A stretch of DNA of 12,392 nucleotides from Planctomycetaceae bacterium (lineage in GTDB: Bacteria; Planctomycetota; Planctomycetia; Pirellulales; Thermoguttaceae). The position numbers were made by a program, and so were the translations under genes. Below the pieces are notes generated by a model. The model was not told where the DNA came from and made no database searches. It saw only the letters and a list, made by a program, of their open reading frames with translations. The stretch lies in contig JAITAZ010000491.1 of assembly GCA_031283825.1 (NCBI GenBank), forward strand, positions 1 to 12,392. Direction: 5' to 3'. Shown here piece after piece: positions 1-12,392 of this stretch (position 1 is the first letter of the stretch; every line of letters starts with the position of its first letter).

Positions 1-612
1 CCAAATTTGCTTTGTGTATTCGAGCCATTCTTTTTGCGATAGTTTACTTTCATCTTTTATTTCTTGAGGTAAATTGTTTTCTGATTTACCATCCTTTACA
101 AAGACGCTAATAAATTCTACCGTATTCTGCGCATAAAAATTACGGGGATATGGATAACTTCCAAACATAATTTTTTTGCTAGGATTCGTCCGATTCCAGA
201 TATACATGTCAAGTAAAAATAATTTTGTTCCATGTAAAATTGAATATTTTATATCGCTATCAATATCGAAAATATGCCGGTTGTAATGTGTATTCATTGC
301 ATTTTTTAACATAGGCATTAATGGACTGTTAACCGCCAACTTACCATTAGGTTTTAATACTCTTTCACACTCTTTCCAGACATACAACAATTCTCCGATA
401 TAATCCTCATAATTTGATATATCGCCAATCTGTCCTAATTTTTGATCGCTATGAGCCTCTAGCTGATAACCATCAAGAGCATAATCTTTGATGTTAAAAT
501 ACGGCGGACTCGTAACAATCAAATGCACAGAATTATCCGGCAATTCTGACATATTACGCGAATCAACAAAAAAAATTTTATCCAAATAATTCAATTTAGA
601 TTTACGTTTCAT
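1..612 (-). CDS. DNA amino-methyltransferase (N4-cytosine/N6-adenine, beta-type order), C-terminus outside window
   Basis: Transfers a methyl group from S-adenosylmethionine to an exocyclic amino group of a DNA base. The 204 visible residues contain the catalytic motif IV TSPPYFN at residues 34-40, close to the N-terminus, then the family-typical block VLKPNGKLAVNSP near residues 85-97 and EFISVFVKDGK near 166-176. The last visible residues, EWLEYTKQIW, normally precede the HPAPFP and FxGxG (SAM-binding) segments, which would lie beyond the left edge. Motif IV before motif I is the beta order of the N6_N4_Mtase family. The ATG at 612 is secure because an in-frame TAA sits immediately upstream (613-615). 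No Shine-Dalgarno is visible. The gene follows the ThuA-like gene on the same strand after 54 bases. Whether it is solitary or has a restriction partner cannot be seen. The TSPPY form occurs in both N4-cytosine and N6-adenine enzymes, so the target base is undecided. Confidence 0.9.
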   Translation of the reverse strand, partial: MKRKSKLNYLDKIFFVDSRNMSELPDNSVHLIVTSPPYFNIKDYALDGYQLEAHSDQKLGQIGDISNYEDYIGELLYVWKECERVLKPNGKLAVNSPLMPMLKNAMNTHYNRHIFDIDSDIKYSILHGTKLFLLDMYIWNRTNPSKKIMFGSYPYPRNFYAQNTVEFISVFVKDGKSENNLPQEIKDESKLSQKEWLEYTKQIW

Positions 613-666
613 TTAATATCGAATGTTCTTAAAAAAGCGTTATAAATTTCTCTTAATTATTTACGA

Positions 667-1872
667 TTATTTTTGTTTCTCCACTGACCATTTAATTAGA
701 TTTAGAAATAGTTTTTGGAATTGTGGTTTTGGGGCGTCGTCTTGGTGTCCTAGCGTGGTGAAAGCGATTTTTGTTTTTCCGTAAATTCTTGTCCATGTTA
801 CGGGGATTTTTTCGGTTATCTTTTTTTTCTTTTGGATTTGCGGATTCATTGTTTCAGTTGAATGAGCATATTGATAAATCGTAGCGTCATCGTTAACTGG
901 ATTCATAAAATAAACAGAACCTGTGCTGTGCCAAGTTTCCGGCTGGACATCTTTTAGAATTGGCGAATTTGCTTGTTCGGGATTATTTGAAATTTCGCTG
1001 CCGAGATTATCTTCGCCGTGTCCGTGATAGTTACTGCCGAGAACCTTGTTATCGAATTCGCGCCATTCTTTAAATTTTGGAGCAAGTTTTCCTCCGACCG
1101 CAAATCCATGACAAGCAGTTCTCAAACCTACGACTCCTTTACCTGATTCGACAAATTTTTTAACTTTATCTAATTGGTCTTCGCGGAGGGCGAGTCGTCT
1201 GAAATAAATTACGAGCGAATCGGCGGTATCGAGTTCGTCGATTCCGTGAAATATGTTTCCGCCTTCGCCGTGTAGAATCGTGAAATATAATTCGCCTTCG
1301 CTTTGAAATTTTTCGATTAACGGCGGCGCCCAAGTATCGGCTTTATAGTGATCGTCGCTAATCATAACGACAACGTGAGGTCTTTTATCGTCGGCGTATC
1401 TAAAAGCCTGACCGCCGATTAAGTCAACAGACGAAATCGTTTTGACTCCTTGTTTTTCGAGATCGATAATAATTTTTTCGCGGTCGAGATAGGTTTTCGC
1501 GTTGGGAATATTAACGAGGTCGCGGATAACAATTGTGTTAGTTAGATCAGGTTTAATTTTTGGATCGTTTGACATCGTGCCGAGAAAAAATTTATTTTTC
1601 GCGTTGGGATCGATTGCGATCTTTGTCGATAAATTTGTCAAATTTGAATTTTTTGATTTGACATAGTCGAGTAATTTTTTGATTCGGTCTTTCATTTCGT
1701 TTCGCACCGGCATAAACAGAAATGTAGTTTCTTCTGAATTTAATTGAATAGTCGAGTACTTGATTTCGTCGCCTGTTCTTGAGCGGACTTGCAAGTCGTA
1801 GGTTTCCGCGTTTATTGTTACGGAAATTAACAAGGCGAAAATTACAGTCAGTAAAGAGGTAATGATTTTCAT
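667..1872 (-). CDS. exported ThuA-like domain protein
   Basis: Residues 1-22 form a classical signal peptide (MKII, a hydrophobic core, then INA before E23), so the 401-residue product is predicted to be exported. The C-terminal half (about 166-400) is a ThuA-like, glutamine-amidotransferase-fold domain: a first strand HVVVM (166-170), the turn GVVGLRTACHGF (246-257), NYHGH (281-285), WHSTG near 314, and the characteristic ending WTRIYGKTKIAFTTLGH (360-376) plus a final FLNLIKW helix. ThuA proteins are linked to disaccharide or sugar metabolism, and exported versions are abundant in planctomycetes; the reaction here is unknown. Residues 25-160 are unrecognised and lack an obvious domain signature. 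The ATG start is supported by the signal peptide; the region just upstream is A-rich without a Shine-Dalgarno. No sugar-metabolism gene is adjacent, so context does not refine the role. The domain call is firm, the substrate is not. Confidence 0.85.
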   Translation of the reverse strand: MKIITSLLTVIFALLISVTINAETYDLQVRSRTGDEIKYSTIQLNSEETTFLFMPVRNEMKDRIKKLLDYVKSKNSNLTNLSTKIAIDPNAKNKFFLGTMSNDPKIKPDLTNTIVIRDLVNIPNAKTYLDREKIIIDLEKQGVKTISSVDLIGGQAFRYADDKRPHVVVMISDDHYKADTWAPPLIEKFQSEGELYFTILHGEGGNIFHGIDELDTADSLVIYFRRLALREDQLDKVKKFVESGKGVVGLRTACHGFAVGGKLAPKFKEWREFDNKVLGSNYHGHGEDNLGSEISNNPEQANSPILKDVQPETWHSTGSVYFMNPVNDDATIYQYAHSTETMNPQIQKKKKITEKIPVTWTRIYGKTKIAFTTLGHQDDAPKPQFQKLFLNLIKWSVEKQK

Positions 1873-2089
1873 TTTTTAGTTTTGGGTTAAGGTGAAGTTT
1901 AAGTTTAATTTTAAATTTAGGGAAATTCGTCAAAATTTTTCAGAATACGATTTATCCGAAAAATCAAGTTGCTCAACATAGAGCGAAAGACATTGTAACG
2001 GCATAATTTTAATTTTCAAGATGATACAATTCAATGAAATTAGTAATATGTTAGTAGAAAATTGTAATTATTCAGTTGTAGTTTTTTAA
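1873..2089. other. gene-free AT-rich spacer upstream of the ThuA-like gene
   Basis: No supportable ORF or RNA gene is visible. The part next to the ThuA-like start is a run of TAAGTTTAA/TTTTAAATTTAG-like words of low complexity. At 2062-2075 lies TTGTAATTATTCAG, which recurs exactly at 2760-2773. It may be a degenerate relative of the TGTAACC repeats described further right. The promoter for the ThuA-like gene should be here, but I could not pick out a convincing one. Confidence 0.4.
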
Positions 2090-2130
2090 GGGACATCAGG
2101 AACAGAAGGAACGTAGGGACAGTAGAGACA
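2090..2130. repeat. imperfect ~9-bp tandem repeat (GGGACAnnn type)
   Basis: Five successive units align as GGGACATCA, GGAACAGAA, GGAACGTA, GGGACAGTA and GAGACA. The second position and the last three bases of each unit vary, and one unit is 8 bases long. Read on the minus strand it is a TGTCCCTA-type tract. It lies downstream of the small secreted protein gene, outside any credible coding region. Confidence 0.7.
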
Positions 2131-2174
2131 TTTTGGTTTAAACCTAATCGAAAAGGCTACAGAATAAAATCCCC

Positions 2175-2239
2175 CTACTACAACTACTACGACTACTACA
2201 ACTAATACAACTCTAAAACAACTCTGAAACAATTTTATT
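2175..2239. repeat. ACTACA microsatellite merging into an 11-bp tandem repeat
   Basis: Positions 2175-2206 are an imperfect CTACTACAA/ACTACG triplet or hexamer tract. It is followed by 11-bp units ACAACTCTAAA (2207-2217) and ACAACTCTGAA (2218-2228) and a degenerate third unit (2229-2239) that reaches the stop codon of the small secreted protein gene. In one minus-strand frame the tract translates as a poly-valine run, which is a by-product of the repeat. Confidence 0.7.
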
Positions 2240-2579
2240 TCTTCGGAATTGGTCTTGCGACTGGCGGAGTTCCTCGAACATACGGGGGACGCTTTTTTAA
2301 TAAGACACAAAACATAACTCGCGATTGCCCCATCCATGCATCTACGGCGTCCCAACCGATATGATACGTTTGAGCGTCTAATCTCGCCTGACGCGCCTCG
2401 ACCGCCGGAACAACAACAACTTTGTAATCGCCAGTTTGAGATTCATTACGCCGGACATAAGTAAAATGAGTTGGACGATGCTTTTCCTGCGCAAAAAGAA
2501 TCGATTGATTATAAAAACCAATCTCGGCTATCGCTATTATAAAACCAATAAACAAAATTTTTGTAACAAAATATTGCAT
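2235..2579 (-). CDS. small exported protein of unknown function (114 aa)
   Basis: I do not recognise this family. The product starts MQYFVTKILFIGF and has a hydrophobic segment to about residue 25 followed by SILFAQEK, which reads as a signal peptide with cleavage near Ala-Gln. The mature part contains FTYVRRNE, the strand-like DYKVVVVPAVEARQ, HIGWDAVDAWMG, and a basic, proline-rich tail PPVARPIPKK. The start at 2579 is chosen over a longer in-frame reading (to 2666) because the signal peptide begins here and a good Shine-Dalgarno, GAGGA, sits 7 bases upstream (2587-2591). It appears monocistronic. Its 3' end runs into the 11-bp tandem repeat, so the last residues may vary between strains. 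It could be a surface, adhesion or periplasmic protein, but nothing visible decides this. Confidence 0.6.
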   Translation of the reverse strand: MQYFVTKILFIGFIIAIAEIGFYNQSILFAQEKHRPTHFTYVRRNESQTGDYKVVVVPAVEARQARLDAQTYHIGWDAVDAWMGQSRVMFCVLLKKRPPYVRGTPPVARPIPKK

Positions 2580-2586
2580 TTTATTT

Positions 2587-2591
2587 TCCTC
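2587..2591 (-). promoter_or_regulatory. ribosome binding site of the 114-aa exported protein
   Basis: GAGGA on the minus strand, 7 bases before the ATG at 2579. It is the only strong Shine-Dalgarno I found before any gene in this window, and it decides the start of this CDS. Confidence 0.65.
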
Positions 2592-2615
2592 GAAAAATTG
2601 TAACGTAATTGTAAA

Positions 2616-2640
2616 TCTGTTAGAAAATTTTCCAAACAGA
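2616..2640. promoter_or_regulatory. imperfect 25-bp palindrome upstream of the small exported protein, possible operator
   Basis: The outer arms TCTGTT and AACAGA are exact complements, and the inner part is the near-palindrome AGAAAATTTTCC. The centre lies about 50 bases upstream of the ATG at 2579, a position where a repressor or activator could act. Function is inferred from symmetry and position only; an AT-rich region can give such palindromes by chance. Confidence 0.25.
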
Positions 2641-2786
2641 AATATAAATTCGTCTGCGGAATGCAATCATGATTACAAAAATTATCGTAACGATAAAACA
2701 ACAGATAATCAATACAATCCAAAAAATTGTTTAAATCATTTTTAAAATTAGAAACAAATTTGTAATTATTCAGCCGCAACATTTTT

Positions 2787-2892
2787 TGTAACCATTCACG
2801 GTTTTTTAATCACGGATAATTAGGGGAATTTTAAACGCGGATAATATCTGATTTTTTTGGTGAATACGGATAATCGCGGAGAATGGAAATGA
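2787..2892 (+). repeat. dispersed repeat, TGTAACC/CGGATAAT family, copy 1
   Basis: Begins TGTAACCATTCACGGTTTT and continues with AGGGGAATTTT, TAAACGCGGATAATA and ACGGATAATCGCGGA. A second copy with the same blocks in the same order lies at 12241-12334, so this is one repeat unit of about 95-105 bp. Its first 20 bases also occur alone elsewhere in the window. The AACC...GGTT core followed by T can form a short stem-loop. Confidence 0.75.
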
Positions 2893-2969
2893 TGCTTTTG
2901 TGGTAGAGAAGTCAATAGATTAAAGGGGATAAAGAAGTGAGGGAATGAGAAATTATAAGATTAATTAAG

Positions 2970-2993
2970 TGTAACCATTCACGGTTTTTTAAA
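2970..2993 (+). repeat. TGTAACC repeat, short copy
   Basis: TGTAACCATTCACGGTTTT followed by TTAA, identical to the start of the copy at 2787 over more than 20 bases. The CGGATAAT blocks that follow the longer copies are missing here. Confidence 0.7.
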
Positions 2994-3019
2994 TTCGGAT
3001 TTGAATTGCTAAACCCAAT

Positions 3020-3095
3020 GTAGAGACGCAATGCCTTGCGTCTCTATCTGTGATCTTTTGATCGAACAATGAGACGCAAGGCATTGCGTCTCTAC
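3020..3095. repeat. REP-like doublet: perfect 25-bp inverted repeat, each arm near-palindromic
   Basis: The arm at 3020-3044 (core GAGACGCAATGCCTTGCGTC) is the exact reverse complement of the arm at 3071-3095. Each arm can also fold on itself because GAGACGCAA pairs with TTGCGTCTC. The 26-base spacer contains a mini-hairpin GATC-TTTT-GATC at 3052-3063. Palindromic GAGACGC...GCGTCTC repeats are known to me as abundant intergenic elements in cyanobacteria and some other phyla. The paired inverted layout resembles REP/BIME elements mobilised by REP-associated transposases, but no transposase is in the window. Confidence 0.8.
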
Positions 3096-3107
3096 GATTG
3101 CTAATTT

Positions 3108-3165
3108 GTAACTATTCGCGTTTGAATTTTTCGATAAAAAAATAAAAAATTTCGTGAACGGTTAC
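3108..3165. repeat. inverted pair of TGTAACC-type repeats around an A/T core
   Basis: GTAACTATTCGCG (3108-3120) faces CGTGAACGGTTAC (3153-3165). The latter is the complement of GTAACCGTTCACG, the version found at 12242. The arms agree at 10 of 13 positions and enclose a T-rich then A-rich core, so the whole could fold as a hairpin. The right arm also matches the start of the copy at 2788 in inverse orientation (12 of 13). Confidence 0.6.
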
Positions 3166-3206
3166 CTTTTTTTCGAGGACAAATTGGACATCATTGTTTT
3201 AAATCA

Positions 3207-3250
3207 GAGATTAACAACTCAAGAGCGGCATCTTTTGAATCGTTAATCTC
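3207..3250. other. strong hairpin, 19-bp stem, 6-base loop
   Basis: GAGATTAACAACTCAAGAG (3207-3225) pairs with CTTTTGAATCGTTAATCTC (3232-3250) at 16 of 19 positions, including nine consecutive pairs at the base, with loop CGGCAT. There is no clear T-run on either side, so it is not a textbook terminator. It lies between the repeat cluster and the helicase relic. It could be a decayed terminator or the end of a mobile segment. Confidence 0.55.
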
Positions 3251-3265
3251 CGACTTCAAACAACG

Positions 3266-3374
3266 ACGTTCCATTTGTTCCCGTTCAAAATATAACAACC
3301 TTGCTGGACATTCGCTCTACAACTAGTTTATCAATCGAACCATTCATTAGGTTTTGTTGTTTATCTTGGAACGC
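3266..3374 (-). pseudogene. relic of the 3' end of a RecB/AddA-like helicase-nuclease gene
   Basis: Positions 3291-3370 align without gaps to 6051-6130, inside the intact helicase gene, at 61 of 80 bases by eye, in the same orientation. Translated on the minus strand in the matching frame, the relic reads LMNGSIDKLVVER against LMKGSIDRLVVER in the intact protein: the GxxD nuclease motif II region. Over 25 aligned residues 17 are identical. The frame then ends at TGA after KVVIF, where the intact protein continues to its DFKTD motif. A weaker match follows at about 3266-3289, encoding FEREQM against FHEEQM of the intact gene (16 of 24 bases), which implies an internal deletion of some 80 bases plus a frame change. 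Nothing upstream of the relic (3375-3436) aligns convincingly. The fragment is far too short to encode an active nuclease. Confidence 0.75.
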
Positions 3375-3377
3375 GCA

Positions 3378-3405
3378 TTGACACGATATTTAATAACACT
3401 ATAAT
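3378..3405 (+). promoter_or_regulatory. consensus sigma70-type promoter of the methyltransferase gene
   Basis: Exact TTGACA (3378-3383), a 16-base spacer, and exact TATAAT (3400-3405). Transcription should start near 3411-3413, leaving a leader of about 25 bases before the ATG at 3437. All twelve consensus bases match, which is unusual, and the position directly in front of a gene on the same strand makes chance unlikely. No operator-like symmetry is obvious around it. Confidence 0.8.
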
Positions 3406-3436
3406 CGCGTCGTCTTCGGACTAAACAACAAACAAA

Positions 3437-5827
3437 ATGCCAAAATACAACAAAATTCAAAAGGAAGAGACGCTAAAAGGTCTCGTTCACGACGATTATT
3501 TTTCTAAATTCGGATACGAACCCAATATCGACAACATTGATTTTGTCGTTACTGATAAAACTACGCGCAATAATTTTTTGGGCAACAGCGGAAGTTCGCT
3601 ACATTATCTCTGGGCGGAATCAAAAAAAGGATCGCACGATATCTTCAATATGTTCACGCAACTCATGCTAACTTGCAAGAAAACATACGAAAAAGCCGAC
3701 TATCTCGCGCCGCCATGGTTAGGCGTTTTCGATTCAGAACGAATCGCGTTTGTCGCATTTCATAATATACTGCCAATCTTTCACGAAACAGATTTTAATT
3801 GGAATACAACTCCCAGCAACCACGAAACTGACGACTTCCAAAAAGCAAAAAAGAAAATAAAAAAACTTATCAACTCAAAACTAATCATTTTCGATTTCGA
3901 GACTGACGATAAAAATATAAAAGATTTTATCAAAACGCATTTCATTAAAGACGCATTCGACGATATTAAAATGCCAATCACGAAAGATAATTTCGTTCAA
4001 ATTTTTATCAAATGGGTAAAAGAAGTTAAACCGTTTATCGATATCTCCGACGACGAATGGATCGACTTCAGAAAAAAAGGAATACTCGATTGCGATTTCT
4101 ACCGCGCCGATCTTATGAGCGAAGACGGAAACACAATTACCGAAAAATTAAAAATCGTTCTCAAAAACGATAATTACAAATTTCAAGAAAACGTAAAAGG
4201 ACGTTTGTTCACGGCTGATATTGATTTTGCTGATGAAGGAATTTCTTATAATCAATTTTGGAATAGATATCAACGTCCGCCTTTAGCAGTTTATCAACAG
4301 TATATTATTGATCGGCGCGATTTACTTGTCCCGCAAAATATACGCGAAGTAAAAGGATCATTCTTTACGCCGAAAATCTGGGCGGATAAATCCAAAGAAT
4401 ATCTAGCCGAAGTTCTAGGCGAAAATTGGCAAGACGAATATTATATCTGGGATTGTGCAGCCGGCACTGGAAACTTACTCGTAGGACTGACAAATCAATA
4501 TAATTTATGGGCAAGCGATATCGATGAAGGTAATGTTGAAACAATGCAAAGTCTTAAAGAAATTGACGAAAATCTTAAATTGTTGACTATGCACATATTC
4601 AAATTGGATTTTCTAAACGACGATTTCGAAATAGAATTGCCTGTTCCATTAAAGAATATTATCAAAGACGACGAAAAACGAAAAAAACTAATTATCTATA
4701 TCAATCCGCCTTATGCTGAAGTGTCGAGTAAAAATTTAGTTGGTAAAGTCGGCGTTAATCAATCAATCACGCATGATAGATACGGCAACGAAATAGGAAC
4801 GGCAGGACGCGAATTATTCACATTATTTCTTGCGCGGATTTATAACGAAATACCCGATTGCATAATTGCTGAATTTTCTACGTTAAAAACGTTAAACGCT
4901 CCAGCTTTTGAGCAATTCCGCAACATGTTTAAAGCAAAACTTAAAAAGGGTTTTATTGTTCCGGCGAATACGTTTGATAATGTTGATGGACAATTTCCTA
5001 TCGGATTCAAAATATGGGACACAAGCGAAAAAGTAAATTTTGAAAGCATTTCGTTTGACGTATTCAACGCCGACAATGTTTTTATCGGCACGAAAACAAT
5101 ACGTTCCTATGAAAGAAAACAGTTGATAAATAAATGGATTTCACAATTCAAAGATAGAACCAAACCGCCTATCGGCTACATGGACGGAATCAATGCAAAT
5201 GATTTTCAAAACTATAATAAAGTTTACGTTCTAAATAAAAAAGAACAAATTCAAAATCCGCGAGGTATATGGATAACAGAGAAAAATTTATACTTTATTT
5301 CAATTTATTTTGCCGCGAGGCATTGTATTAAACCAACATGGCTAAACGATAGAGATCAATTCTTATATCCGAACGATGATTATAAAAAAGACGCAAAATT
5401 TCAAAATGATTGTTTAATATTTACATTATTTCATGGGCAAAATCGTATTTCTTGTAAAAACGGCATAAATCACTGGATACCGTTTTCGGAACAAGAGATC
5501 AACGCGAAAGAAAAATTTGAATCTCGTTTTATGAGCGGTTTTCTTAAAAATAGAAAATTAAGCGGTATTGCACAACAGACTCTCGACACGGCTAAAAAAC
5601 TTTGGATTTATTATTATTCTCAAACGAAAAAAAATAAAACTACGTTAATCAATGCTTCTTTGTATGATATTCGCGAATATTTTCAAGGTCGAAACGATAA
5701 AGGGAAAATGAATAATAAATCCGATAACGAAACTTACAACTTGCTTATCGCCGATTTAAGAGATAAACTCAAAGCTCTAGCCGACAAAATTCAAACAAAA
5801 ATTTACGAATACGGATTCTTACGATAA
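3437..5827 (+). CDS. N6-adenine DNA methyltransferase with N-terminal PD-(D/E)XK-like motif, putative single-chain (type IIG-like) restriction-modification enzyme
   Basis: A 796-residue DNA-modification protein. The methyltransferase core has GSFFTPK (307-313, motif X-like), the SAM-binding motif I DCAAGTGNLL (339-348), ASDID soon after, and the catalytic motif IV NPPY (423-426). The family block PANTFDNVDGQFPIGFKIWD follows, then a long C-terminal part likely to hold target recognition. The N-terminal region shows IDFVVTD (34-40) and WAESKKG (59-65), an acid...ExK arrangement expected of a PD-(D/E)XK nuclease. Cleavage and methylation may therefore reside in one chain, as in type IIG enzymes; this is inference. 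Start: an in-frame TAA lies at 3422-3424 and the consensus promoter at 3378-3405, so ATG 3437 is secure although no Shine-Dalgarno is seen. No separate restriction or specificity subunit adjoins it. It converges on the helicase gene with 16 bases between stops and is flanked on its other side by a helicase relic. A solitary modification enzyme with a dead nuclease domain remains possible. Confidence 0.88.
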   Translation: MPKYNKIQKEETLKGLVHDDYFSKFGYEPNIDNIDFVVTDKTTRNNFLGNSGSSLHYLWAESKKGSHDIFNMFTQLMLTCKKTYEKADYLAPPWLGVFDSERIAFVAFHNILPIFHETDFNWNTTPSNHETDDFQKAKKKIKKLINSKLIIFDFETDDKNIKDFIKTHFIKDAFDDIKMPITKDNFVQIFIKWVKEVKPFIDISDDEWIDFRKKGILDCDFYRADLMSEDGNTITEKLKIVLKNDNYKFQENVKGRLFTADIDFADEGISYNQFWNRYQRPPLAVYQQYIIDRRDLLVPQNIREVKGSFFTPKIWADKSKEYLAEVLGENWQDEYYIWDCAAGTGNLLVGLTNQYNLWASDIDEGNVETMQSLKEIDENLKLLTMHIFKLDFLNDDFEIELPVPLKNIIKDDEKRKKLIIYINPPYAEVSSKNLVGKVGVNQSITHDRYGNEIGTAGRELFTLFLARIYNEIPDCIIAEFSTLKTLNAPAFEQFRNMFKAKLKKGFIVPANTFDNVDGQFPIGFKIWDTSEKVNFESISFDVFNADNVFIGTKTIRSYERKQLINKWISQFKDRTKPPIGYMDGINANDFQNYNKVYVLNKKEQIQNPRGIWITEKNLYFISIYFAARHCIKPTWLNDRDQFLYPNDDYKKDAKFQNDCLIFTLFHGQNRISCKNGINHWIPFSEQEINAKEKFESRFMSGFLKNRKLSGIAQQTLDTAKKLWIYYYSQTKKNKTTLINASLYDIREYFQGRNDKGKMNNKSDNETYNLLIADLRDKLKALADKIQTKIYEYGFLR

Positions 5828-5843
5828 ACGCTGTTCCGCTACG

Positions 5844-8800
5844 CTATTTTTTTAACGCCGGAATCGCTCTGCCGACGCTCGTGAAAATTAACGTTACAGT
5901 AATTATACTCGGATCAACTCTGTACAATTTCGCGACTCCTTTACGATACGCTTTCATCTGTTCCTCGTGAAATTCTCGGCGGCTTTCAAGAAAATTTTCT
6001 TCCGTTTTTTCTGAACCCATTCGATCCGTCTTAAAATCTAAAACCTCAATATTAACAACCTCGCCGGACTTTCGCTCTACAACAAGTCGGTCAATTGAAC
6101 CTTTCATTAAACGTTGTTTTTTATCGTCGTCGAAAATTAGAAAACGTCTCTCATGCCAAACCTCGACGCTATCGCCGGAACTGTATCTACGACGCGATAA
6201 AACCTCGCGAATCTCCGGCTTCTTGCAAATCTCAATGAACGAATCAATAACGCTTTTCGCGTCAACATTCAACTCCGCTCGCCTTTTGCCGACATAGCCG
6301 TCGTCTCTAATAACTTTTTCAATTACGCCGCTTAAAATTGTTCGATCAAATTCCGTGTCGTCTAGCCATTCTCTGCGTTTTAACCAATTCTCAAAACACG
6401 CATGAATCATCTTGCCCCATAACATCGCAAGCTCGCGATTATAACTATAACTAGTTTCTTCAGACTTGATAACGTCAACGCGATCCGTTTTTTCATACGC
6501 CTCCGATTCTACGCTCTGCTTTTTATCTGATTTTCCATCATCCGTTTCATCGCTAATAAAAGTATGACGCGAAGGCGTTATTCGTTGTACATATCGATAC
6601 TCTTTACGATCCGATAGAATATCGCCGATTTTAATTTCGTCGAGTTCTATATTTTTTTCTGCATCTTTACTTTTGTCTGATTGAGGTTTACTCCAATGTC
6701 TATTGCCGGTTTCATACAAAATCGTCGAACTTGTTCTCTCGGCGGAATTATTTTTTTCACTAGAATTTTTATCATGTAAAGCTGCAAGCAAAAGCCCCTC
6801 AAATGTTTCTGGATATTTAATGTCGTCATTATCTTTCGCGTTTTCCTTTTTTATTTTTGGCGGTTTTACAATCATCACAAGCTCGTGAATCGCCCGTGTC
6901 ATCGCAACATACAAAACCGATAACGACTCCTTAATAGCGTCTTTAACATGATCTGAAAACGCTTTTCGATACTTATCCGGTTGCTCCGGCAAAAGAGATT
7001 GCAACGCGCTGTTAAGATACTTAATTACCAAGTCAATATCAGCAGTTGGTTTTTCGCGTCCGGCGATAAAGTTCGGCGTTCTTGCGTTTTTTTTCAAACT
7101 GCCATTCAAAAATGGAAGCACGACTATATCAAATTGCATCCCCTTCGATTTGTGAATTGTCATTATCCGAATGTTGTCAGTTATACTCGGACTCTGAACC
7201 TTTGTACTTTTTATCATTGCGATAAATTGTTTCGTCCTTGCGCCGCTCGCGTTTTCCTGAAATTGATACGCCAACTCCAGCAATTTTTCCAACCGCTGAT
7301 ACTCCCGCTGATCACAAGACGGCGCAAGCGATTCAACAAAACGCTCAATCACAATCCCATAACCGCTTTCCATTAAATCGCGCCGCAACTTCAACGCAAC
7401 ATTCGACGCAATCTTATCATCAAAAGCGCGGCGCGACTTCGACTCAATCCATTCGTCGTCGTATTTTTTCAAGCCAAGTATGTCGGCTAAAGGCGAATTC
7501 GCTAGATGGAATCTTGCTACGCCGTCGTCTGGGTGATCCGCCAATTGCATCGCCGATAACACGCATTGAACCGCCGCCGAATCTGTAATCGGGTTGCCGC
7601 CTTCCTCGCTTACGCTAATATTCCGGCGACGAAATTCATTCATCAATTTCGCTATTTCAGCATTTTTTGTAACAAGAATTCCAATCGAACAATCAGGTTT
7701 CCGCTCGCTTATCTCTATTACTTTTTGGACAACATAACTTTCATAACCTGTAATTTTGTCGTCGCCGTTATCGTTGTCAGTTTCGTCTGAATCGACCTCT
7801 GCCGTTTCAACAACGTCGTAAATGCTTTCGGGAGCGTATTCTAACAAACAGTGTCCTTCAAAGTCTTTTGCCGTTTTATGCTCTTTCATCCATTCCCGCC
7901 ATGAGCTTATGGCGTCGGTTTTCTTTTGTTCGTTTTTGTTTAACCCAAGCCAAACATAAAATACTTTATTCACAACATCAATAATAACTTGACTACTTCG
8001 ATAACTAATTTCCATAGTCTGTTTGTCAATATTCGGGGCAACATTATCTACTTCTTTGAAAATTTCGGACACTCCGCCGCGCCATCCGTAAATTGCCTGT
8101 TTCGAATCGCCAACGCACAAAAAAGTATTGTTCGGCGATAACGCAACACGATTCACAAACGGCTTAAGAATATTCCATTGAGATTTCGACGTGTCTTGAA
8201 ATTCGTCCAAAAGCAGATGTTCAATATTTGAATTCGTCCGATGTAAAATTGATTGGAATAGAGATTGAAAATCAAATTTATCGTTTTGCAGCTTGAATAA
8301 ATCGCCCAATCGATTGGTAATATCGTCGAATTGCAAAACTTGATTGTAGCTTAAAATTTTATCATATTCGACGACAATCAAATCAAACAACTCCCGCATC
8401 GTCCGTGTTATTCCGACAATTTTATTCAACTCGACCGCTTTTGCATGAACAATAAATTTGCGTAGAGAATTAAGTAAATCCCCTTCAATTGGTATATTAT
8501 AATATTTGTTTTCTGCGGCGATAATACTTTTGATAATCTTTGCGTCAAGAATTTCTAGCCAATTATTTTCATTGATAGCCGTAAGAATTGAATTGCGGAC
8601 ATTGACAAATCTATTGTCAATTTTACCGGCTTTTGTTACGGGCAATTCGGCGAGTTGTAATTGTTGCAAAGCGTCGTCGAATTCGTTTGTGTCGAGTTCT
8701 TTCGTCAAGAGTTCGTGATTGTCCCAAGCGTCGGGCGAAGACTCGCGGACAATGGGCATTACTTCACACATTAGCTCGCGTAGTTTTTTTGTAACGTTAA

Positions 8801-9359
8801 TGTCTTGATCGCCCTGTTGAATGGAGAGCATAAGTTTTCGCGCGTTATTTTTCTCGGAATTTTCTAAAACTTTGTGAATTGCTTCGTTGACAATTTTCTC
8901 AAATTCGCTATCGGGAATTATCGACCAACCGGAAGGAAATCCAAGTTCAAGAAAAAAAGTAGAAGCAATCCGGCTGAAAAACGAGTCAAGGGTGCAAATC
9001 CGAACTTTGTACAGATTACGAACAAGTTGCGCGAGAGCGTCGAATAATTTCTTGTTGATAATATTTTGAATTTCCGACTTGTTTTTTGTGTCGTTGAAAA
9101 TATCATTTGGCATTAAGGCTTTTAGATTATTTATTTCAGAGTTATCTCCGGCGATAGCTTTAGCAAGAGTTTTTATAATCCGTTCTGTAATTTCTCCGGC
9201 GGCTTTTCGGGTAAAGGTTGAAGCAAGAATTGTATCGACTTCGATTTTTTCGATTTTATTGGTGGCGTCAATATTTCTAAACAAAATTTTCAGAAAACGA
9301 TTACTAAGCTGCGTAGTTTTCCCAGACCCAGCAGACGCTTGAATTACAATATTTGGCAT
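5844..9359 (-). CDS. UvrD-like (SF1A) helicase with C-terminal RecB-family nuclease, AddA/RecB-like
   Basis: Predicted ATP-driven DNA helicase-nuclease for double-strand-break end processing ahead of RecA, and degradation of foreign linear DNA. Helicase motifs are complete: Walker A ASAGSGKTT (K14), FTRKAAGE (Ia), DEFQDTSKSQW (D385-E386), GDSKQAIYGWRGG (417-429), IMTIHKSKG (H736) and VAMTRA (R822). The RecB-type nuclease is also complete: GKMIHACFE (H986), GSID (D1090), LDFKTD (D1108, K1110) and QMKAY (Q1134, Y1138). Length, 1171 residues, fits AddA or RecB. Two acidic, low-complexity insertions interrupt the middle and the linker before the nuclease. The ATG at 9359 (MPNIVIQASAGSGKT) is preferred to a TTG 19 codons upstream because the P-loop strand normally starts the protein; neither has a Shine-Dalgarno. 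No AddB or RecC partner is visible on either side. The start faces a hairpin-rich gap and the stop is 16 bases from the convergent methyltransferase gene. Confidence 0.92.
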   Translation of the reverse strand: MPNIVIQASAGSGKTTQLSNRFLKILFRNIDATNKIEKIEVDTILASTFTRKAAGEITERIIKTLAKAIAGDNSEINNLKALMPNDIFNDTKNKSEIQNIINKKLFDALAQLVRNLYKVRICTLDSFFSRIASTFFLELGFPSGWSIIPDSEFEKIVNEAIHKVLENSEKNNARKLMLSIQQGDQDINVTKKLRELMCEVMPIVRESSPDAWDNHELLTKELDTNEFDDALQQLQLAELPVTKAGKIDNRFVNVRNSILTAINENNWLEILDAKIIKSIIAAENKYYNIPIEGDLLNSLRKFIVHAKAVELNKIVGITRTMRELFDLIVVEYDKILSYNQVLQFDDITNRLGDLFKLQNDKFDFQSLFQSILHRTNSNIEHLLLDEFQDTSKSQWNILKPFVNRVALSPNNTFLCVGDSKQAIYGWRGGVSEIFKEVDNVAPNIDKQTMEISYRSSQVIIDVVNKVFYVWLGLNKNEQKKTDAISSWREWMKEHKTAKDFEGHCLLEYAPESIYDVVETAEVDSDETDNDNGDDKITGYESYVVQKVIEISERKPDCSIGILVTKNAEIAKLMNEFRRRNISVSEEGGNPITDSAAVQCVLSAMQLADHPDDGVARFHLANSPLADILGLKKYDDEWIESKSRRAFDDKIASNVALKLRRDLMESGYGIVIERFVESLAPSCDQREYQRLEKLLELAYQFQENASGARTKQFIAMIKSTKVQSPSITDNIRIMTIHKSKGMQFDIVVLPFLNGSLKKNARTPNFIAGREKPTADIDLVIKYLNSALQSLLPEQPDKYRKAFSDHVKDAIKESLSVLYVAMTRAIHELVMIVKPPKIKKENAKDNDDIKYPETFEGLLLAALHDKNSSEKNNSAERTSSTILYETGNRHWSKPQSDKSKDAEKNIELDEIKIGDILSDRKEYRYVQRITPSRHTFISDETDDGKSDKKQSVESEAYEKTDRVDVIKSEETSYSYNRELAMLWGKMIHACFENWLKRREWLDDTEFDRTILSGVIEKVIRDDGYVGKRRAELNVDAKSVIDSFIEICKKPEIREVLSRRRYSSGDSVEVWHERRFLIFDDDKKQRLMKGSIDRLVVERKSGEVVNIEVLDFKTDRMGSEKTEENFLESRREFHEEQMKAYRKGVAKLYRVDPSIITVTLIFTSVGRAIPALKK

Positions 9360-9461
9360 AAAAATAAACTTAAAATAAAAATTGAATATTTCAGCAGGTA
9401 AAAGATCTTTCGACAAAATATTTCTTATAACTCATGTTACGCACTTGCTGCTCCAGACAGA

Positions 9462-9511
9462 TAGGCGACCGCCGACTCAGGTAGGCGACCGCCGACTCAA
9501 GGTAGGCGACC
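9462..9511. repeat. 20-21-bp direct tandem repeat, about 2.5 copies
   Basis: TAGGCGACCGCCGACTCA occurs at 9462-9479 and again at 9482-9499. A third partial copy, TAGGCGACC, at 9503-9511 leads directly into the inverted repeat. There are no unique spacers, so this is not a CRISPR array. Confidence 0.75.
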
Positions 9512-9633
9512 TTTCGCCGAAAGGTCGCGTCGGCGTTAGCCGACGGTAAATCTGAATTGATTTTAATTATTGTCGAATCCATTTTATCGTTGCCTTCGGC
9601 AACGCGACCTTTCGGCGAAAGGTCGCCTACCTT
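9499..9633. repeat. REP-like element: exact 31-bp inverted repeat with internal hairpins
   Basis: The arm at 9499-9529 and the arm at 9603-9633 are exact reverse complements over 31 bases. Each arm is itself a hairpin, GCGACCTTTC pairing with GAAAGGTCGC around a three-base loop. Between them lie two further hairpins: GTCGGC-GTTA-GCCGAC (9529-9544) and CGTTGCC-TTC-GGCAACG (9588-9604). The segment is clearly more G+C-rich than its surroundings. It is non-coding; a 63-codon minus-strand reading frame across it only reads the repeats. It may act as a bidirectional terminator between the divergent neighbours or be a REP-type mobile remnant. Confidence 0.8.
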
Positions 9634-9653
9634 TTAAAAGTGTTATTGCCGTT

Positions 9654-9701
9654 ACCGTATGCTAAAGCATACGGTTAATAAAGTACTGTCCTTGCAGGAC
9701 A
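9654..9701. repeat. two further hairpins in the helicase-YfhO gap
   Basis: A perfect 10-bp palindrome, ACCGTATGCT-AA-AGCATACGGT (9654-9675), is followed by TGTCCT-TGC-AGGACA (9687-9701) and then an A-rich run. Read on the minus strand, the second is preceded by a T-rich stretch and has no T-run after it, so it is not a clear terminator. Together with the element at 9499-9633, six or seven stem-loops fall within about 200 bases. Confidence 0.65.
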
Positions 9702-9807
9702 AAGAAAAATAAAATTGTCCGGTAAAATTAGGCCATGGATATATTACCAATGATGTTTTGTTCCCTTAAAATAGATATTTTAATCCTTTCTTTTCTTACA
9801 TTTAAAC

Positions 9808-12237
9808 TTGGGCTATCGATATATTTTTTTGGTAATTGTTTTATTTTTTTGTTTTAATGGCGGAGTTCCGGCGTTTCGGGATGGCGTTCATTATTATCGT
9901 CCGTTGTTTTGGTATCTTTGCGGCGAAATTGAGTTAGGGCGATTACCGTTGTGGAATCCTTATGAGAATCTTGGACAACCTCTTGCGGCTGATCCTACGT
10001 CGTTGTGTTTCTATCCTGTTATGATTTTTGCGGTTATTGCTTCGGTCTTGGGGATGAATCGAGATTTTGCTTATTCGATTTGCGTTGGATTTCATATTTT
10101 GCTTGCAGCTGTAACTTGTTATAGATTTATTCGTCTGAATCGTTTATCTCGTGAAGCCGGAGTTTTTGCCGGTTTGAGTTATGCTCTTGGCGGAGTTGTG
10201 ATTTTTCAGTGGAATAATCTACCGTTTCTTATTGGTGCTGCGTGGTTGCCGGAAGCGTTGAGTCAGGCAAAAATAATTATTGACGCGAATAAGTCGAATA
10301 GTTCTAATTCAGTTTATCGAAAGGGCGGAATTTGTTCGTTGTTTGATTTGGATCAATTTTCGTACAAAAATTCTGCCGACATTCGATTTAATGTAATTGC
10401 GTTTGCAATTGTTCTCTCGATGATGATATTAGGCGGCGATATTCAAACGGCGTATAATGTTGTAATTTGCGTTGTTGTAATGATTTTGATTTTGTCAAAA
10501 TATAAATTTCAAGCGTTAATTTATTTTTTCATTGCTGGAATATTTACGTTTATGTTTTCGGCGATTCTGATTTTGCCAGCAATTGAATTGTGGCAATTAT
10601 CTGACAGAACTTTAATTCAACATAGCGATTCGATAGAGCGTTTTTCGTTTCATCCTTTGCGGGTTTTGGAATTTCTTTTTACTGGAATTGGCGGAAAATT
10701 ATGTCCGGTAAATGCTGGAATATTTGCCGCGTTTTTGAAAGAAAAAAATCTTTGGACTCCGTCGGCGTATCTTGGATTACTTCCTGCAATATTTGCGTTA
10801 TGCGCGATTATTTCTGTTTTGATTTCGGCAATTGTCCGATTCCGCTGCCGCCGATTTTCAAAGCAAATCAGATATAAAATGATACTTGCCGCGATTATAA
10901 TTTTGACATTTTTTCTCTTTGCGAGTTTTGGCGGCAACTTTTTTGTTTATAGCGTGTTGAGAAAATTTCCAATTTATAATTCGTTTAGATATCCGTCGAA
11001 GTTATTGGTTTTTGCGGCGGTCGGAATTTCATTTTTGTCGGCGGTCGGATTTGATACTTTTAGACTAAATAGACGATTTGCAAAACTAACAATTATCATG
11101 TTGCGAATTATCGTTACGATATATATTGTTTTTGTAATTTTTGTTTGTTTCAATGGTTTTCCGAAATTCGAATCTCATCCGTTGTTTGGATTGTTTGATG
11201 CGGAGAAGGCGAGAAATCATTTGATTGTTTCGGTAATTATTGTAACGATAATTGTGATTTTGGTTGAGTTTAATTATCGTTACATTTTTATTGATTGCGT
11301 CAACAAATCGCGATTAGCTTTAAGGCGAAAAATATCGGGTTGGATTTTGGTAATTATTGTTACGGTTGATTTGTTTGTAGTAAATTCATGGATGATGATT
11401 TCGACGCCGTTTAGTCGTAATGATACGAAATCTTTGACGTTAAAGCTGATAGAATCTGATACAAACGATTTATTGGCGATTAAAGCGGTTGATGGAGGTA
11501 GTCGAAATTTTCCGATTCGTGTTTATCGGGATTATCCTTTTCGTTATCCGAGTCGATTTATGGAGTCGTCGTTGGATCGATTTGAGGAGATAATCAGTTG
11601 GGAGAAGTTGACGTTGTATCCGCGATATTCGTTTTTGGCTAAGGTTGGTTTATCGAATGTTCGGGGTTCGGTGATGCACAAGGATTATTACGCGGCGATG
11701 TCTCAAGTTTCGGCGGAGCGAAAAATCGTTGAAAATCGGGATGCGGCGGGATTATTTGAGAGTCATTTGGAGCAGTTAGGCGTGAAATATATTATTGCAG
11801 AGCGGGATTCTTTCGTGAAAAATAGAGATTTCAAAGCGGATAAAATAATTATTGATCTGAAAAATATTGATGGCGAGGATATTAGATTTCCGCTTGAATT
11901 TTCGATTTGGAGATTGAGAAATCCGAAGTTGCGAGAATATATTTTGTATGAGCCGAATCGAATTATATTTGACGTAAACGTGCGTGAAGAAACAGAAACG
12001 ATAATGTTAACCGAGCAATATTGGAAAGGTTGGCGGGCGTTTGACGGAGATGTAGAGATTCCGATAAAGCCAGTTCGTAAAATTTTCAGAGCTGTAGAGT
12101 TATCAAAAGGCAAACACCGAATAACGATGATTTACGATCCTCTATTAATCAAGTTAGGCGGACTAATCGCGTTTATAGGAATTTTATCGGCGATTATATT
12201 TTGCGTTTTTTTTCCGATTAATTTATGGAGAGTATAA
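9808..12237 (+). CDS. YfhO-type multi-pass membrane protein, putative GT-C-like glycosyltransferase
   Basis: An integral membrane protein of 809 residues, with roughly a dozen hydrophobic helices up to about residue 535, a large extracytoplasmic C-terminal domain, and a last helix at about 779-803. The N-terminal loop carries the family signature FRDGVHYY (23-30, acidic D25), PLWNPYENLGQP (48-58) and ADPTSLCFYP (61-70). The C-terminal domain ends with YWKGWRAF (738-745) and GKHRITMIYDP, typical of YfhO relatives. In Firmicutes YfhO is tied to glycosylation of lipoteichoic acid; the substrate here is unknown. The 5' end is unsettled. No in-frame ATG exists between the upstream stop at 9781-9783 and the FRDG motif, so TTG 9808 is a best guess and there is no Shine-Dalgarno. 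An ATG at 9735 opens another frame that is also hydrophobic and overlaps this start, so a frameshift near 9805-9850 is possible. The gene is divergent from the helicase and appears monocistronic. Confidence 0.85.
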   Translation: MGYRYIFLVIVLFFCFNGGVPAFRDGVHYYRPLFWYLCGEIELGRLPLWNPYENLGQPLAADPTSLCFYPVMIFAVIASVLGMNRDFAYSICVGFHILLAAVTCYRFIRLNRLSREAGVFAGLSYALGGVVIFQWNNLPFLIGAAWLPEALSQAKIIIDANKSNSSNSVYRKGGICSLFDLDQFSYKNSADIRFNVIAFAIVLSMMILGGDIQTAYNVVICVVVMILILSKYKFQALIYFFIAGIFTFMFSAILILPAIELWQLSDRTLIQHSDSIERFSFHPLRVLEFLFTGIGGKLCPVNAGIFAAFLKEKNLWTPSAYLGLLPAIFALCAIISVLISAIVRFRCRRFSKQIRYKMILAAIIILTFFLFASFGGNFFVYSVLRKFPIYNSFRYPSKLLVFAAVGISFLSAVGFDTFRLNRRFAKLTIIMLRIIVTIYIVFVIFVCFNGFPKFESHPLFGLFDAEKARNHLIVSVIIVTIIVILVEFNYRYIFIDCVNKSRLALRRKISGWILVIIVTVDLFVVNSWMMISTPFSRNDTKSLTLKLIESDTNDLLAIKAVDGGSRNFPIRVYRDYPFRYPSRFMESSLDRFEEIISWEKLTLYPRYSFLAKVGLSNVRGSVMHKDYYAAMSQVSAERKIVENRDAAGLFESHLEQLGVKYIIAERDSFVKNRDFKADKIIIDLKNIDGEDIRFPLEFSIWRLRNPKLREYILYEPNRIIFDVNVREETETIMLTEQYWKGWRAFDGDVEIPIKPVRKIFRAVELSKGKHRITMIYDPLLIKLGGLIAFIGILSAIIFCVFFPINLWRV

Positions 12238-12240
12238 TTT

Positions 12241-12334
12241 TGTAACCGTTCACGGTTTTCAAATTCCGATAATAGGGGAATTTTTAAACACGGATAATAA
12301 CAGATAGGACGGATAATCGCGGAAAATGCAAATG
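12241..12334 (+). repeat. dispersed repeat, TGTAACC/CGGATAAT family, copy 2 (possible terminator at its start)
   Basis: Starts three bases after the YfhO-type gene's stop with TGTAACCGTTCACGGTTTT, then AGGGGAATTTT, TAAACACGGATAATA and ACGGATAATCGCGGA, in the same order and orientation as the copy at 2787-2892. The first part, AACCG-TTCA-CGGTT followed by TT, is a 5-bp stem with a tetraloop that could act as a weak intrinsic terminator for the membrane protein gene. The remaining bases to the window end are AT-rich with nothing recognisable. Confidence 0.75.
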
Positions 12335-12392
12335 GCGATTTTAATATTCATAAATTTATTTATTTAGGTTTATTTAGTTATAGTTGATTTGT

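Follow-up and report, generated by a model that had tools for sequence, protein, structure and literature searches.

Insertion of restriction–modification (RM) genes with a long duplication of the target was reportedly described by Nobusato et al. in 2000 and by Furuta et al. in 2010. Passages of four papers describe RM systems that insert with long target copies of variable length and without a linked mobile element (PMC3874152, PMC3031569, PMC1643837, PMC4978471), and one of them gives the size of these duplications as "in the order of 100 bp" (PMC3874152). The movement of RM genes by target-duplicating insertion is already described, and the locus reported here is probably a further case. 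It lies in a stretch of 12,392 nucleotides (hereafter the window) from the genome of a Planctomycetaceae bacterium, a draft of 689 contigs that is 73% complete. Like the insertions described, the RM gene of the window stands between direct copies of neighbouring sequence and is devoid of a linked mobile element: no transposase or integrase was found in the unit, and the ORFs of at least 60 aa between the two copies are the RM gene and two small minus-strand ORFs lying inside it. Unlike them, it encodes a single chain of type IIG-like character and belongs to a planctomycete, the duplicate beside it is an old relic at 80% identity, and the locus is known from one strain. The coordinates of the main features are collected in Table 1.

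Table 1. Features of the RM locus and of the adjacent helicase gene (window coordinates)
Feature	Position	Strand	Characteristics
Imperfectly palindromic copy of a dispersed repeat	3161..3296		Inverted self-alignment, 72% over 136 columns; adjoins the relic on its right
Relic of the helicase nuclease domain	3285..3365	-	80% over 81 columns to 6046-6125; 17/24 residues
Sigma-70 consensus promoter before the RM gene	3378..3405	+	TTGACA-16-TATAAT, 12/12 match
Type IIG-like RM gene, 796 aa	3437..5827	+	Motifs and fold; D35..E61xK63, FFTP 309, DCAAGTGN 339, NPPY 423
Intact AddA/RecB-like helicase-nuclease gene	5844..9416	-	UvrD-helicase and UvrD_C Pfam; homologues in congeners
Helicase stretch copied by the relic	6046..6125	-	Within the intact helicase-nuclease gene

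The relic is a short piece of the helicase 3' end, found on the far side of the RM gene. A blastn search inside the window aligned it with the intact gene on the same strand, at 80.2% over 81 gapped columns (E 4.2e-14), and the ungapped count made earlier by eye, 61 identities in 80 positions between 3291–3370 and 6051–6130, turned out to be exact. The local score of 80 stands clear of shuffled sequence, where the maximum of 500 dinucleotide shuffles was 36, and the significance of the pairwise alignment is thereby established. The reading frame is kept for 24 codons, with in-frame stops beyond it on both sides. The relic protein reads DKQQNLMNGSIDKLVVERMSSKVV, compared to DKKQRLMKGSIDRLVVERKSGEVV in the intact helicase; the conservation of the frame and of the GSID motif that the earlier note had pointed out is borne out, but its 17 of 25 identical residues become 17 of 24 on translation. 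The RM gene does lie between the relic and the helicase end, as had been stated, and is separated by 16 bases from the end of the helicase ORF at 5844.

Both borders of the relic deserve some detail. The leftmost ten or so matching bases, as far as about 3295, are shared with the end of the dispersed palindromic repeat, and the certain core is thus restricted to about 3293–3365. This repeat is abundant: with 40 out of 362 candidates scored, the segment 3150–3436 already has at least 49 matches in the genome, counting itself and the helicase, and nine matches end at 3289–3296 among the 18 dispersed-repeat loci compared. On the other side, a duplicate would be expected to reach the helicase stop codon, but the part equal to 5844–6045 is absent and an equivalent was found for 6046–6125 only. 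The further similarity of 3366–3436 to the helicase is not significant (39 to 275 of 1000 dinucleotide shuffles equalled it, according to target and scoring); against 300 simple shuffles its score tied with the highest one, but the aligned segment was not collinear with the relic. Other intergenic palindromes or dispersed repeats of the window are located at 3016–3100, at 9499–9633, and at 2784–2899 with 12238–12342.

Judged from its motifs and modelled fold, the product of the RM gene is a type IIG-like nuclease-methyltransferase, with a predicted activity as a restriction-modification enzyme. Its motifs are presumably of the nuclease type (D35..E61xK63), SAM and NPPY motifs; residues D35, E61, K63, D339, G343–G345 and N423–Y426 (NPPY) are invariant in an alignment of 34 members, all of one chain. 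The structure model (pLDDT 81.8) finds BpuSI as its top match with Foldseek and DrdV with VIA-align, where DrdV, LlaGI, LlaBIII, BpuSI and MmeI all stand within the first six rows. Residues 178–791 are well covered by type IIG matches, and the methyltransferase and C-terminal parts are thus modelled with the fold of these enzymes; for the N-terminal domain, a putative PD-(D/E)XK nuclease, the alignments to BpuSI and DrdV start at residues 1–2, but with an rmsd of 18 for the whole-chain model. Sequence identity with BpuSI, DrdV, MmeI and BsaXI (type IIB) ranges from 10 to 16%, and the chain is shorter than those of BpuSI, DrdV and BsaXI. The perfect promoter attributed earlier to this gene was found as described (Table 1). 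A family-wide promoter was sought in 90 RM-gene flanks, where the window alone reached 12/12 and the remaining scores were shuffle-like. A second DNA methyltransferase (N6_N4_Mtase), interrupted by the contig end, occupies positions 1–612 of the window.

The protein family is large, with 7934 homologues among 7999 scored candidates. At E ≤ 0.001 the window protein has no match in Pfam, NCBIfam or PADLOC, and no precomputed Pfam domain was present in any of the 120 homologues listed. Pfam scans of the 34 aligned members gave Methyltransf_25 in 14 and N6_Mtase in one, along with Roc in six and Ras in one (best 1.5e-4). Such weak small-GTPase matches (Rab, Roc, Ras; best E 1.5e-4) fall on residues 486–618 (window 4893–5290), and a sequence profile run against solved structures returned small GTPases as well, over residues 486–634 (the 60 shown of 96 matches, best E 5.5e-4). 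They are probably due to chance, because the fold search returned methyltransferases and type IIG enzymes. Among the matches listed, the closest homologue comes from a Spirochaetia bacterium (69–70%), closer than the best copies in congeners (60–67%). This is consistent with a horizontal spread of the family, seemingly between phyla, to which picture misbinned contigs could add. The 296 genomes drawn from the phylum of genome G040 held only two further copies at E 1e-120, and viral contigs one further copy.

The neighbouring helicase ORF was called from TTG 9416, but its likely start is ATG 9359, since alignments with most homologues begin near residue 20. Its Pfam domains are PF00580 (E 2.5e-40) and PF13361 (E 2.1e-17), and near full-length homologues are found in three congeners at 60–64%. 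Like AddA and RecB, the protein has UvrD helicase domains and a C-terminal region with GSID and DFKTD, which we take to be nuclease motifs. Unlike the AddA/RecB families, it does not reach the cut-off of any of the 15 listed NCBIfam models (best score 222.5 bits against an equivalog cut-off of 650), and it is therefore named only "AddA/RecB-like".

The locus is probably the result of an old insertion of the RM gene with a long target duplication, of which the spare copy has drifted and lost its left part at the palindromic repeat. A single-gene type IIG unit of about 2.5 kb, roughly 3366–5843, would have entered just past the helicase stop codon. A staggered break followed by insertion and fill-in would have copied the helicase 3' end to the far side of the insert, the working helicase keeping its full end. 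The extra copy, no longer under selection, would then have drifted to 80% identity, and its left part would have been lost where the dispersed palindromic repeat now sits. We infer the staggered break, the repair steps and the order of events. The earlier note had set this history beside two others; it comes out as the best supported of the three, because the arrangement is the expected one, the relic resembles the adjacent helicase more than any other compared, and gene-end copies accompany two further members of the family, one of them with three unfilled-site relatives.

A first alternative, which we consider unlikely, is that the RM gene was imported along with part of a diverged helicase belonging to a different strain or species, through homologous recombination at the helicase end. 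The apparent movement of the RM family between phyla, with a Spirochaetia homologue as the closest listed, would suit such an import, and 80% identity is indeed low for a local copy. Moreover, at three codons the relic has a synonymous base which matches at least one congener and differs from the own helicase; the relic is thus either an old copy or derived from a sister strain. On the other hand, the own helicase is by far its best match, with a score of 80, whereas the highest among ten congeneric contigs was 46 (G019). When 3283–3390 was searched against 21 genomes of the genus, the own one included, the strong matches were the relic and the neighbouring helicase only. The best match in the other 20 genomes is the G019 helicase itself (E 6e-5), followed by matches of 23–24 bases in G011 (4e-4) and G008 (1e-3). 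The nucleotide search suggested earlier as a means to detect a closer helicase in another species thus designates the adjacent one, with weaker matches elsewhere in the genus, and none of the 21 genomes showed relic-like sequence away from an RM gene. No RM copy was found beside a helicase 3' end in the contigs compared.

The insertion with target duplication would ideally be read against an empty site. None could be aligned for the window, because the neighbours of its helicase recur in none of the 17 other helicase contigs compared, several being cut off a short way from the gene. Three further helicase contigs (L094, L097 and L098), omitted from that comparison, were included in a tblastn search of the ThuA and methyltransferase genes on 27 contigs, which gave no shared flank, and no shared flank was found via the YfhO gene.

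Other members of the family are observed beside gene-end copies. At locus L174, in a Sphingobacteriales MAG, an intact prfC gene (8282–9862, identified by RF3_C) is followed by the RM gene (9995–12445), and then by a 137-base copy of the prfC end, which is 97% identical and includes the stop codon. A prfC match at E 1e-60 was present in 49 of the 60 genomes searched, the own one included. In the three closest (L287, L288 and L290), a single prfC end is joined directly to the genes found at 14874–16374 of L174, and the unfilled site is thus seen in three close relatives; in a fourth one, L289 (prfC 78%), the native neighbour was not seen beside prfC. As judged by eye, the two prfC-end copies of L174 share bases that are absent from the three relatives, and each has private changes. 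The duplication therefore looks recent and local. More than one event has nevertheless occurred at this site, since the tail copy is separated from the native neighbour by a 734-aa ORF that has no Pfam match and no counterpart in the loci of the relatives.

At locus L126, in a Spirochaetaceae MAG, the copy is that of a gene start: 128 bases of uvrA, 94% identical, stand 98 bases upstream of the RM gene, and the real uvrA begins beyond the RM gene and a 637-aa ORF. The uvrA gene was matched in 34 of 39 relatives. Comparison of eleven of their loci gave no informative empty site, because they match only uvrA and its close upstream region. The units of the window, L174 and L126 have no shared ends and no terminal inverted repeats. 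At L124, direct repeats of 182 bases (92%), lying outside long ORFs, flank the RM gene together with OLD-like and UvrD-like genes. This segment (153–6471) holds an OLD-like TOPRIM ATPase and a UvrD-like helicase, presumably a Gabija-like pair, in addition to the RM gene.

It can also be proposed that the relic stems from an unrelated local duplication or from a repeat-mediated rearrangement, the RM gene having come separately, earlier or later, and having duplicated nothing. The contact between the relic and the dispersed palindromic repeat is in line with this proposal, which however appears improbable in view of the RM gene lying exactly between the copies, and of the enrichment of near-flank repeats of any kind around RM genes. 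This enrichment was estimated on the loci at hand. Repeats above 34 bits were present at 14 of 80 RM loci against 3 of 158 cross-locus pairs, a count that includes tandem RM copies because each flank held 60 coding bases; flank repeats were also found around 8 of 83 RM genes, compared with 6 of 325 randomly chosen positions of these loci. When the direct repeats had to lie no more than 320 bases away on either side, they flanked 7 of 77 RM genes and 6 of 339 other large ORFs of the same loci (p 0.004), or 6 of 76 RM genes if the tandem RM array is removed (p 0.011). Among these six non-tandem positives, the window and L174 involve long ORFs, whereas L106, L107, L136 and L162 do not; the L162 repeat is palindromic by eye, and the L136 unit recurs nearby.

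Flank repeats were found at 8 of 86 RM genes against 10 of 359 by blastn; with tblastx the figures were 8 of 86 and 6 of 359. Repeats located anywhere within 5 kb concern 17 of 91 RM genes and 21 of 288 controls, a count from which tandem RM arrays were not removed. In the strict class, defined by an intact gene end and a relic, the difference is not significant (3 of 86 RM genes against 4 of 278 controls, p 0.36; 3 of 277 controls and p 0.15 after removal of the control sharing the L126 unit). Gene-end duplications are thus not significantly rarer around other ORFs, which is the other point in favour of an unrelated duplication. For the blastn and tblastx, 5-kb and strict-class counts, eight loci were left out because they were taken for duplicates of others; two of them, L158 and L189, had no substitute, and both belong to the loci of the 320-base test, where neither is positive. 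Since the strict class is not significant, the case for an insertion with target duplication rests on the anatomy and on the L174 comparison, not on frequency.

Replacement of most of a tandem second helicase copy by the RM gene, with a scrap of its end left over, would give the observed order of relic, RM gene and helicase, but it is very improbable, as the own genome (73% complete) yielded no second AddA-like helicase, the other match being a weak UvrD-type one, and as the three closest congeners have one strong helicase match each.

At the level of the whole family, it may tentatively be envisaged that these genes form a transposase-free mobile unit which enters gene ends in at least three phyla, with target copies of about 80–180 bases, and leaves the neighbouring gene intact, as observed for the gene-end cases of the window, L174 and L126; this extension is possible rather than likely. 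The present analysis adds a large type IIG-like gene family, hitherto without a name, to the RM genes that seem to move on their own. L174, with its three unfilled-site relatives, provides a case usable for working out the break and repair steps.

Several RM loci show further rearrangements. In the congener G006, a broken RM remnant (L055, 3–587), made of residues 674–795 and then 295–335, ends five bases before the 5' start of the same helicase gene. Where an RM end had downstream room, another RM copy followed within 250 bases in 10 of 114 cases, seven of the eight repeat loci mentioned above being dropped from this count. Half of these downstream copies (5 of 10) are truncated, and all five start at residues 276–303, near the start of the methyltransferase domain. 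Loci concerned include L055, L099, L103, L137 and L259. Such partial copies could possibly be spare recognition cassettes or second-strand methylases. At L259, two partial RM copies agree at 85–90% on both sides of an unmatched middle. The same locus (4136–9911) has an RM gene interrupted after residue 241 by a 3.3-kb segment, in which one ORF matches IS66 zinc-finger, MazG and radical-SAM families.
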